64,000 bases of DNA from Bacillus sp. F19 (GTDB lineage Bacteria; Bacillota; Bacilli; Bacillales; Bacillaceae), in the NCBI GenBank assembly GCA_023823795.1, contig CP085710.1, positions 3,436,001-3,500,000 of the forward strand, written 5' to 3'. Numbering within the stretch: position 1 is the first letter of the stretch; each line of letters starts with the position of its first letter. This document shows, piece by piece, positions 18,219-41,314 of the stretch. The notes under the pieces were generated by a model that was given only the letters and a program-made list of their open reading frames with translations, was not told the DNA's origin and did no database searches. Both the position numbers and the translations under genes were made by a program.

Positions 18219-18488
18219 TTACCAGCTGGCTTTTTTCACTCCTGGAATCTGACCCTTATGAGCATATTCTCTGAAAGCAATTCTGGAAAGCTTAAATTTT
18301 CTTAAGTATCCTCTCGGTCTTCCGGTTACTTCACATCTGTTTTTTAAGCGTGTTGGAGATGAGTCTCGAGGCAGTTTTCTAAGAGCTTCAAAATCTCCTT
18401 TTTCTTTCAGCTCAATACGTAATTCTCTATATTTCTCAACTAATGCCTGACGTTTTTTCTCTTTTGCAACTTTCGACTTTTTTGCCAC
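18219..18488 (-). CDS. rpsN2: Alternative 30S ribosomal protein S14, zinc-independent
   Basis: An 89-aa S14 paralogue of the YhzA type: (M)[19 protein letters not shown] at the start, [20 protein letters not shown] in the middle and [14 protein letters not shown] at the end. It lacks the CxxC pairs of zinc-binding S14 (one Cys only). It replaces the zinc form on ribosomes under zinc shortage. I use the GTG at 18488 because it gives the family length of 89; an in-frame ATG lies three codons earlier. A Zur box lies about 40 bases upstream. Confidence 0.93.
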
Positions 18489-18528
18489 TGCTCTCATCCT
18501 TTCCTTCATATTCTATTGAATATACCAC

Positions 18529-18551
18529 AAATCGTAATAATTACTATTTAA
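18529..18551. promoter_or_regulatory. Zur box before rpsN2
   Basis: AAATCGTAATAATTACTATTTA is a near-perfect palindrome that matches the Bacillus Zur operator (AAATCGTAATNATTACGATTT) with one base change in the right half. Confidence 0.88.
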
Positions 18552-18637: not shown

Positions 18638-18994
18638 TCAATTGACTAACAGATAATATTTCTTATCTTGATGCGTATTCCCCTGATTTTTCATCACTTT
18701 TTCTGTATAGTCGATCCCTCTATGTTTGTCTATTTTTTTGTCCAGTTCACGGTTTATTTCATTTTCAATCTGCTTCATCAATCTATATGTTTCATCGACT
18801 GTCATACAAAAATGAACAGCAGCTTGCTGGAATGGAGACCTTTGGATAAGAAGGTTTAAAAACTGCTCCTTTGTCTCACATTGTGAAGCCAGTCTATCTT
18901 CCAAACTTTCAATGTATTGATACAGGTTCTTTTTCTTCGGAGGCAGCCCTGCTATAATGCTCCGTGTTAAGACATTCATTAGCTTTTCGTTCAT
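18638..18994 (-). CDS. Unknown 118-aa protein in the zinc-starvation block
   Basis: Starts at ATG 18994 (MNEKLMNVLTRSIIAGLPPK) with GAGGTG 6 bases upstream. The protein is soluble, basic and mainly helical. The middle (QFLNLLIQRSPFQQAAVHFC) and MTVDETYRLMKQIENEINRE could form a helix-turn-helix-like segment, but this is only an impression. I do not recognise a family. Its upstream region has a half-good Zur-like site (19031-19053) and it lies between rpsN2 and the COG0523 GTPase, so a role in zinc shortage is possible. The ORF is complete and well initiated. Confidence 0.7.
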   Translation of the reverse strand: MNEKLMNVLTRSIIAGLPPKKKNLYQYIESLEDRLASQCETKEQFLNLLIQRSPFQQAAVHFCMTVDETYRLMKQIENEINRELDKKIDKHRGIDYTEKVMKNQGNTHQDKKYYLLVN

Positions 18995-19030
18995 CACTGT
19001 CACCTCTTATACATGATATCAATCTATCCA

Positions 19031-19243: not shown

Positions 19244-20449
19244 TTAATAATTTGCAATAGGTATCTCCCAGTCAAATGGATCCTCAAGTTTGTTCCAGTC
19301 GGAATCAAATTCATCATTTGTAAGTAAACATTTATCCAATAGCTTCACAACATCACGTTCGTTCATATCAACCCCAATAAACACAAGCTGTGTCATTCGA
19401 TCTCCGAACTCTGGATCCCATTCTGCTTGTATATGAGGGTTCTCTTTCACTAGTGCATCCCGTTCAAGTACAGGCAAAGCTGCTACCCAATAAGACACGG
19501 GTTCGATAATGATAGAAGGTCCTGCTTGTGAGACAGAAAGGGCAAGTTTATTTCTTGTAGCACACCAGGCTATTCCTTTGACCCTGACCACATTTTCTGA
19601 AATAGAATGCATTAATTGATAAAAACGGTCACTGTGAAAAGGTAATTTTCGTTTATAGACAAATGATGTGATGCCGTATTCTTCTGTTTCCGGCTGATGG
19701 TCTTTATGACCGGTTGTTAACTCTTTAATCCATCCAGCAGATTCGCTGGCTTTGTCGAAGTCAAAAAGACCAGTCTGAAGAATTTCCGTGGGCTTGACTT
19801 GACCCTTTTCTGTTCGAATGAAGCGTGCCCCAGGCTGAAGCTTTCTTAATACCTGTTCAAGTTTATGTAATGCTTCCTCCGTTACCAGATCACACTTGTT
19901 TATGATGAGAACATCACAAAATTCAATCTGATCCAATAATAAGTCAGCAATTTCTCTATCATCTTCTTCACTTAATGCATCTTTGCGGTCAATCAAACTG
20001 TCACCTGACCTAAAGTCATGCCAAAAACGGCAGGCATCCACAACTGTGACCATAGTATCTAACTTGCAAAAACGCGTAAGGTCTATGCCCAGCTCCTCGT
20101 CAATATACGAAAAGGTTTGAGCCACTGGCACCGGCTCGCTTATGCCTGTTGATTCAATTACTATGTAATCAATATTGCCTTCAAGTGCCAACTTTTCAAC
20201 CTCAATTAGCAGGTCTTCTCGCAATGTGCAGCAAATGCAGCCATTTGACATCTCGACTAGCTTTTCTTCTGTTCTCTGCAAGCCCCCTCCTTGTTTAATG
20301 GTTTCTGCATCTATATTGATTTCGCTCATATCATTAACGATAACAGCGACCCTAAGCCCCTCTCGGTTTTGAAGAATATGATTTAATATAGTTGTTTTTC
20401 CAGCCCCTAAATATCCGCTTAAAACTGTTACAGGAATTTTTTCAGCCAA
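19244..20449 (-). CDS. zagA: COG0523 GTPase, ZagA/YciC-type zinc metallochaperone
   Basis: A 401-aa G3E GTPase. Walker A is GYLGAGKTT, the metal-binding CxCC is in [14 protein letters not shown], the switch region is [10 protein letters not shown] and the base-binding motif is NKCD. The C-terminal CobW domain covers about residues 275-385. In B. subtilis the Zur-repressed ZagA (YciC) hands zinc to the GTP cyclohydrolase FolE when zinc runs short. A perfect Zur box lies 15 bases before the start codon. Length and motifs fit ZagA; other COG0523 members are possible. Confidence 0.9.
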
Positions 20450-20463
20450 GAAGATCTCTCCTC

Positions 20464-20486
20464 AAATCGTAATAATTACGATTTAA
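20464..20486. promoter_or_regulatory. Zur box before zagA
   Basis: AAATCGTAATAATTACGATTT is a perfect inverted repeat identical to the Bacillus Zur operator core. It lies between zagA and the flavoprotein gene. Confidence 0.93.
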
Positions 20487-20579
20487 ATATATGATATAAA
20501 CTCTAAAATGTAAAGTGAAACCAAATTTCTTCCTATTTTATTTATCTATTATTGAAATGGTTTTGATTAAATTATTAAC

Positions 20580-21737
20580 TTAAATTCCTGATACGATTTG
20601 TTCAGCAGCTTGTCTTGCACCGGAAATATTTCTAGCAATGGGCCCAATCTGAAGTTCAGCTAATGCTCCGGTTACGTATAAGCCTTCGGACCATTCAAGA
20701 CGCTCTGTTACAATAGGATATCCGCATTCTGCACATTTTAGCTTTTCCCTTTTGATTAGAGGTGAAATCCATCCTCTTCCTGGGAGTGAAGGCTTAAACC
20801 CAGTTGCTAGAATAATTGATCTAGCTAAGATCTCTTTACCCTCTTTAGTAATCAGTATTGTTCCGTTTTCAACTTGCTTAAATGTATTAATCTCCTCATC
20901 TAACCATTCAAGCCGTCCACGTCTCTTCAAGTGGTGAAGTTTCATATGAAGATCTTGAGTTATGGAACCTCGGTGTCTGGCTTCAATAATTCCCCTGCGC
21001 CGGCTTGAATAATCGGGATTATTTCTAAATGAAGCCTGCTTTTTAGGGCCAAGCCATCCTGGATCACTATCAAACAGCTTGACTCTGAATGGATGCCTTT
21101 TCATCATTGTTACTTCACCAGGGAAAATGCTTGCCAATTTGTTCACGAGATGAGCAGCTGTCATCCCTCCTCCAATGACTACGATAGGTCCTAATAAAGA
21201 TTCAAAATTAAGGGTATCCTCAAAAATATGATGAATGGTCTGTGTTTTATCTTTTAACTTTAGTGCCCATTCAGGCCAATAAGGCTGTTCTCCAATACCA
21301 ATTGCAATCACAACATTCTTTGTGGTTAACTTATTTCCGTCATCATTGACGATTTCCCAATTAACACCAATCTTTTGAATCTCTATGACCCGACCCTTTA
21401 TCCAGCATTCTCTCATATTTAATTCATGAAACAGATGATCACAATGCTGCTTAAAAAGCTTTAATGATGGTCTTTTAAAACGTCCATAAAAAGTTTCGCC
21501 AGGATTCTGTTTGGAAAATCGTTCAAGCCCAAATGGATTTATCTCAATATGATGAACGGATGGAGATCTCAAATATGGCATTGAAATCGCTTGGGTGCAT
21601 CGTTCCCAGTTTTCCAGCGGCTTAGTGTGTGTGTCAATAATTCGTATTTTACAAGGTGTTGTTTTTTTGCTTTGCAGAAGAAAAGTGGCCATTGTAACCC
21701 CCTGAACTCCTCCTCCAATAATGATCCATTCATACAT
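20580..21737 (-). CDS. FAD/NAD(P)-binding oxidoreductase under Zur control
   Basis: A 385-aa flavoprotein with the order of N-hydroxylating and related monooxygenases. The FAD-binding GGGVQG is at residues 8-13 (MYEWIIIGGGVQGVTMATFL); a second nucleotide motif is near residue 195 (IVVIGGGMTAAHLVNKL); the C-terminal ATGF motif is in SIILATGFKPSLPGRG. A CAECG pair is near residue 337. The substrate is unknown; it resembles SidA/IucD/PvdA and lysine-type monooxygenases. A Zur box lies about 21 bases upstream. Such control suggests a job in zinc shortage, for example in making or changing a metal-binding small molecule, but no synthase gene is nearby. Confidence 0.78.
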   Translation of the reverse strand: MYEWIIIGGGVQGVTMATFLLQSKKTTPCKIRIIDTHTKPLENWERCTQAISMPYLRSPSVHHIEINPFGLERFSKQNPGETFYGRFKRPSLKLFKQHCDHLFHELNMRECWIKGRVIEIQKIGVNWEIVNDDGNKLTTKNVVIAIGIGEQPYWPEWALKLKDKTQTIHHIFEDTLNFESLLGPIVVIGGGMTAAHLVNKLASIFPGEVTMMKRHPFRVKLFDSDPGWLGPKKQASFRNNPDYSSRRRGIIEARHRGSITQDLHMKLHHLKRRGRLEWLDEEINTFKQVENGTILITKEGKEILARSIILATGFKPSLPGRGWISPLIKREKLKCAECGYPIVTERLEWSEGLYVTGALAELQIGPIARNISGARQAAEQIVSGI

Positions 21738-21757
21738 ACAAAATCACTCCTATTATT

Positions 21758-21780
21758 TAAAACGTAATTATTACGATTTG
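21758..21780. promoter_or_regulatory. Zur box before the flavoprotein gene
   Basis: TAAAACGTAATTATTACGATTTG keeps both half sites (ACGTAAT and ATTACGATTT) with one change from the perfect palindrome. Confidence 0.85.
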
Positions 21781-41292: not shown

Positions 41293-41314
41293 AAAACGTA
41301 ATAGTTACGATTTG
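41293..41314. promoter_or_regulatory. Zur box before rpmG
   Basis: AAAACGTAATAGTTACGATTTG keeps both half sites with a one-base centre, matching the Bacillus Zur operator. Confidence 0.85.

Follow-up and report, generated by a model that had tools for sequence, protein, structure and literature searches.

A conserved flavoprotein family of Bacilli with a recurrent Zur box and a likely role in zinc shortage

The window analysed here is a stretch of 64,000 nucleotides of Bacillus sp. F19 (contig CP085710.1, positions 3,436,001 to 3,500,000 of the forward strand), and its subject is a flavoprotein gene lying close behind a putative operator (Zur box) of the zinc-dependent repressor Zur. A preliminary description of this DNA had reported a 385-aa FAD/NAD(P)-binding protein with a Zur operator 21 bases before its start codon, and both were recovered as described, at the following positions of the window:

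20580-21737, minus strand: flavoprotein open reading frame (ORF), 385 aa, ATG start; FAD/NAD(P)-binding, predicted oxygenase of the N-hydroxylating monooxygenase (NMO) fold
21759..21779 (21-mer; core 21762-21776), unstranded: Zur box of the flavoprotein gene, 1 mismatch to the core

The 21-mer leaves exactly 21 bases to the ATG, which lies 24 bases after the core; the pattern used for scanning, TCGTAATNATTACGA, is what we take to be the Zur core. As far as sequence can tell, the gene encodes a real, conserved and unnamed zinc-starvation flavoprotein, which is likely to be made when zinc runs short.

Recurrence of the Zur box

In an order-level set of 299 genomes the flavoprotein gene was found in 84 (38 of 116 genera) at E <= 1e-60, and 250 upstream bases were scanned in 84 loci, 83 of them fetched and one from the F19 genome itself; loci L140-L142 were added after a first scan of 81 and are included in the second. 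The gene has its own upstream box at up to two mismatches in 61/84 loci and at three mismatches in 5 more, these five and many of the two-mismatch boxes being individually weak, whereas the reversed pattern at up to three mismatches gave 0/84; among the remaining genes of 150 aa or more at these loci, a box is present in 20/456 cases at up to two mismatches and in 34/456 at up to three. A further 12 loci hold the flavoprotein in a same-strand run behind a box, and six fail this rule. The latter stayed counted as boxless: three (L108, L110 and L126) have a boxed S14 gene upstream, with an opposite-strand ORF intervening, one (L112) follows a znuA-like gene, and two (L077 and L092) close long runs with boxes further upstream. 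Beyond the order, a class-level set carried the gene in 44 of 299 genomes at E <= 1e-40, of which 36 fall outside the order; from 42 class-level loci, 6 second copies of the same places were set aside and 36 counted, with a box in 32/36 at up to two mismatches, in 34/36 at up to three and in 0/36 for the reversed pattern. The preliminary description had proposed looking in related genomes for the same gene behind a Zur box, and at up to two mismatches this arrangement was thus borne out both within the order and beyond it. Whatever the genus, and beyond the order as well, the box lies mostly about 28-64 bases upstream of the start. Fourteen loci from named genomes, some species of which may be shared with the order set, gave a box at up to two mismatches just upstream in 10 and at three mismatches in 2 (L017 and L024); the others are a truncated copy listed apart (L029), with a three-mismatch site before the remnant, and a boxless Anaerolineae locus.

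Since the core recurs before its relatives, the flavoprotein gene is likely repressed by zinc-loaded Zur, and its predicted membership in the Zur regulon of Bacilli is strongly supported. Neighbours alone do not account for the link, because 17 of the 20 loci lacking a core zinc gene keep an own box at up to two mismatches (and one at three). In the whole window the core at up to two mismatches was found 4 times against 0.12 expected, and no shuffle reached 4. Within the F19 genome, nine of ten sites at up to one mismatch adjoin zinc genes (L31, COG0523, ZnuA, S14, cntKL-like and the flavoprotein itself), the tenth lying within an ORF that by eye resembles a potassium transporter. One result weighs against this regulatory assignment: genome-wide, at up to two mismatches, 34 forward matches stand against 58 for the reversed pattern. 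Therefore only close matches near starts were taken to count, and a lone two-mismatch box means little. A promoter scan gave 5 sites versus 5.3 in shuffles, no excess over chance.

A two-mismatch Zur-like site at 41296-41310 of the window, between ORFs and away from any recognised zinc-starvation gene, is likely a chance match. Apparently broken flavoprotein genes were seen at L027, L028, L029, L140 and L199; all retain an upstream box at up to two mismatches except L029, with its three-mismatch site, and L140 was excluded from the conservation count, leaving 83 of 84. The broken copies suggest that the gene is dispensable in some lineages.

Zinc neighbourhoods in Bacilli and beyond

The COG0523 zinc chaperone and zinc-free S14 paralogue placed next to the flavoprotein by the preliminary description are both there, starting at 20449 behind a perfect box and at 18509 behind a one-mismatch box, respectively:

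20464..20484 (core 20467-20481), unstranded: Zur box before the COG0523 gene, 0 mismatches
19244..20449, minus strand: COG0523 (CobW/YciC-type) GTPase, PF02492 and PF07683; the commonest neighbour of the flavoprotein family
18638..19003, minus strand: 121-aa protein of unassigned family, recurring in zinc clusters
18529..18549 (core 18532-18546), unstranded: Zur box before S14, 1 mismatch
18219..18509, minus strand: zinc-free S14 paralogue (rpsN2-type), PF00253, with NF006477 over its cut-off

By sequence this S14 has one Cys only, and the COG0523 protein scores 522 bits with the ZigA model, under its 600-bit cut-off. The 121-aa protein gave no Pfam or NCBIfam match and no confident family; its cluster occurs in 17/84 loci, the window counted, several of which have it lying between the S14 and flavoprotein genes. 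A core zinc gene is present in the fetched stretch of 64/84 loci, within 1.5 kb in 61/84. Neighbour clusters, named via resemblance to Pfam-scanned representatives, comprise COG0523 (50 of 84 loci), S14 (27), an ArsP-type permease and a ZnuA-like protein (18 each), DUF1980 (16), a second COG0523 cluster (10), L31 (6) and folE2 (4), and in two same-genus relatives a folE2 ORF begins a few bases after the flavoprotein gene. In Bacillus sp. PAMC26568 (L016:6249-6503) COG0523 is reduced to an 84-aa ORF, with a 98% identical flavoprotein and an ABC/MFS transporter set adjoining. Elsewhere in the F19 genome (L003:3-2866, C1:4225083-4227946) a COG0523 gene adjoins a thioredoxin-like [2Fe-2S] protein, followed by another COG0523 gene and one for ZnuA (L004:1571-2602); the region has three Zur boxes.

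The flavoprotein has zinc neighbourhoods in Bacilli, cyanobacteria and haloarchaea. A tblastn search of plasmid records gave 19 records, of which 15 were inspected (4/6 cyanobacterial, 8/10 haloarchaeal). A protein search in haloarchaea gave 635 proteins, which do not enter these counts. All four inspected cyanobacterial relatives sit in zinc clusters, three with hemB and folE and the fourth near a zinc ABC importer, hemB and a cobW protein. Seven of the eight haloarchaeal ones have a metal ABC importer, a GTP-binding protein (verified as cobW only in L150) or S14 nearby, the importer directly upstream in three of these, while L157 lacks any such neighbour; in Haloferax, hisI and S14 adjoin the relative. 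The Staphylococcus record shows a two-mismatch Zur box 38 bases before the start. Identities to these outer groups are 27-36%, so that a common function across them is inferred.

The predicted enzyme and its published relatives

The flavoprotein scores over the Pfam cut-offs of PF07992 (Pyr_redox_2, 55.8 bits), PF13454 (NAD_binding_9, 55.5 bits), Pyr_redox_3 and PF13434 (Lys_Orn_oxgnase, 35.8 bits, across 77 residues), and is the one match to its sequence in its own genome at E <= 0.001. In the NCBIfam scan every model stayed below its cut-off, including that of the flavin monooxygenase ArsO, rejected as an identity for the protein (NF040505, 32.2 bits against 425). Rossmann motifs for FAD (GGGxxG at 8-13) and NAD(P) (GGGxxA at 189-194) are present, and G8, G189 and G191 are invariant across 54 aligned sequences. 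Because a PDB search by sequence yielded distant, partial matches only, the AlphaFold2 (AF2) model (predicted local distance difference test, pLDDT, 92.7) was compared with the PDB by fold, and it matched the overall fold of NMOs acting on Lys, Orn or diamines. The predicted class is therefore an oxygenase of monooxygenase-type fold, which fits the modification of a metal-binding small molecule suggested in the preliminary description. The aligned segment after the FAD motif, presumably the NMO substrate-binding segment, is not kept: it reads LRSPSVHHI in the flavoprotein against LQVPFMADL in 15 NMO-family proteins (from 20 loci, after a length and motif filter). The siderophore NMOs PvdA, SidA, DesB, KtzI and DfoA differ further in being only 15-18% identical to the flavoprotein, which has putative zinc-type rather than iron-type control and no siderophore assembly gene noticed adjoining. 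A redox CxxC is kept within the order and missing from the aligned cyanobacterial and haloarchaeal relatives; the idea of this motif as the catalytic centre of the family was dropped for that reason.

Zinc control of one relative is already in print, and probably that of a second. A homologue on the Synechococcus PCC 7002 plasmid pAQ7, 30.6% identical over 99% and likewise beside hemB and folE, differs from the F19 protein in lacking CxxC and in having another palindrome upstream, which we take to be of the cyanobacterial Zur type. The tag SYNPCC7002_G0132 was assigned to it via gene order. G0132 is described as an FAD-dependent oxidoreductase; together with hemB-II, folE-II and G0131 it is up when A2498 (zur) is deleted and when TPEN is given, and all four are counted among seven Zur targets (PMC4628125). 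The S. aureus homologue located after mnhG is 36% identical and carries a two-mismatch Zur box. We take it to be NWMN_0815 (SA0806), on a numbering in which SA0807 would be mnhG; calprotectin, one of its inducers, sequesters other metals besides zinc. Published data list NWMN_0815, labelled disulfide oxidoreductase/SDR and linked to the zinc-limitation response, at 17.5-fold on sulfide, 8.4-fold on Angeli's salt and 229-fold on calprotectin (PMC5480029). Cg0795 of C. glutamicum, a putative oxidoreductase whose gene is divergent from one of COG0523 type, is reported as repressed by Zur, with Zur shift assays (PMC2823685), and may be another zinc-controlled relative, judging from this description.

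The preliminary description had also known of no monooxygenase-like flavoprotein among the Bacillus Zur targets. This stands for the B. subtilis targets given in the available review literature, as well as for the main texts of B. anthracis and B. subtilis Zur papers and of PMC10957091, PMC8000910 and PMC7438024, where term searches found no flavoprotein; elsewhere, G0132 and its probable fellow member NWMN_0815 are already in print as under Zur or zinc control. The published passages on G0132, NWMN_0815 and Cg0795 name no substrate and do not join them into one family. What appears new is how widely the family extends, that a Zur box recurs before its genes and that it is likely of an oxygenase class; term searches of the open-access literature, supplements aside, gave no match for these. 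A single testable family may lie behind genes listed as 'oxidoreductase' in at least two published transcriptomes of zinc shortage. Zur regulons are known chiefly for importers, chaperones and zinc-free paralogues; the family would add an unnamed oxygenase-like member across Bacilli, and suggests that the response to scarce zinc commonly includes a chemical step absent from present accounts.

Candidate roles in zinc shortage

The explanation that we favour, tentatively, is that a Zur-controlled flavoprotein of NMO fold, made in zinc shortage, oxygenates a small zinc-binding amine or thiol. Zinc-loaded Zur would repress the gene, and on zinc shortage the protein would be made and, with FAD, NADPH and O2, would act on such a compound, either freeing zinc near the COG0523 chaperone or yielding a better zinc ligand; the product would help to gain or release zinc, perhaps passed on to the chaperone. 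The regulatory part of this mechanism is well supported by the recurrent box, while the substrate and the benefit to the cell are inferred. Since the family is common to Bacilli, cyanobacteria and haloarchaea, a widespread metabolite would be expected as the substrate, not bacillithiol or an opine; to our knowledge cyanobacteria and haloarchaea do not make bacillithiol, which was therefore judged unlikely as a shared substrate.

Functional replacement, the other role raised in the preliminary description, is a less probable alternative, by which the flavoprotein would substitute, zinc-free, for a zinc-dependent step, as S14*, FolE-II and HemB-II nearby do. Its neighbours are indeed zinc-free paralogues or members of such families (S14 in 27/84 loci, L31 in 6/84, folE2 in 4/84; hemB and folE in 3/4 cyanobacterial records; hisI and S14 in Haloferax), but any Zur target can be expected to have members of the regulon nearby, no zinc enzyme carrying out an equivalent FAD/NAD(P) reaction came to light, and the sequence matches no zinc-enzyme family in Pfam or NCBIfam.

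It is tempting to speculate, with somewhat more reserve, on an ancient one-enzyme zincophore pathway, in which Bacilli, cyanobacteria and haloarchaea would use the Zur-controlled N-hydroxylase-fold flavoprotein to make or finish a small hydroxylated chelator of zinc. This reading arises from two related genomes (L077/L163 and L092/L164) that combine an exporter, an importer and a single enzyme: there the flavoprotein is last in a run with a MatE exporter (identified by domain scan in one genome and by cluster in the other), ATPases and an SBP_bac_5-type ABC importer; no opine dehydrogenase (PF10100) match was found in either. MatE or MFS exporters also accompany opine zincophores, as described in PMC7438024. 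Both runs show three Zur-like boxes between S14 and the SBP_bac_5 importer run (L163:8302-10122 and L164:8305-10123).

More doubtful still is a role in thiol redox, in which the flavoprotein would act as a disulfide reductase with NADPH and hold metal-binding cysteines, such as those in the CxCC of the COG0523 chaperone, in the reduced state; compared with the bacillithiol disulfide reductase YpdA, the flavoprotein gives a shorter match and 17.9 bits against a cut-off of 339.9. It is very improbable that the enzyme tailors an opine metallophore of the staphylopine type, in spite of a Zur-boxed cntKLM-like cluster in the F19 genome and of ABC genes of the opine-metallophore-carrying kind adjoining the gene in L016, L020 and L027: this route was rejected on co-occurrence, because an opine dehydrogenase (PF10100, over cut-off) and the flavoprotein are found together in just 10/299 genomes, against 74 with the flavoprotein alone and 15 with the dehydrogenase alone (Fisher p 0.17). 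Finally, a box that arose by chance, or that acts on the COG0523 gene only, is barely credible, for although AT-rich palindromes are common genome-wide, this one recurs at a similar distance from the start codon in different genera, also beyond the order and even without zinc neighbours.

The F19 opine-metallophore cluster itself (L143:1320-6136, C1:3129319-3134135) lies behind a perfect Zur box and encodes a DapF-like 278-aa protein, cntK-like by eye with no Pfam match, a 264-aa protein with a weak, sub-cut-off NAS match, a staphylopine dehydrogenase (PF10100, 702 bits) and SBP_bac_5. A second kind of flavoprotein (PF13738; YpdA model below cut-off) was seen in Shouchella close to S14 and COG0523, preceded by a perfect Zur box (L022:1932-4814), and a PF13738 flavoprotein likewise on a Haloferax plasmid (L150:9282-12338), in both cases accompanied by a FeoB-like GTPase/Gate membrane protein; a third case of this arrangement may be found in S. 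aureus, with NWMN_2481-2483 (COG0523, hypothetical and FAD proteins).
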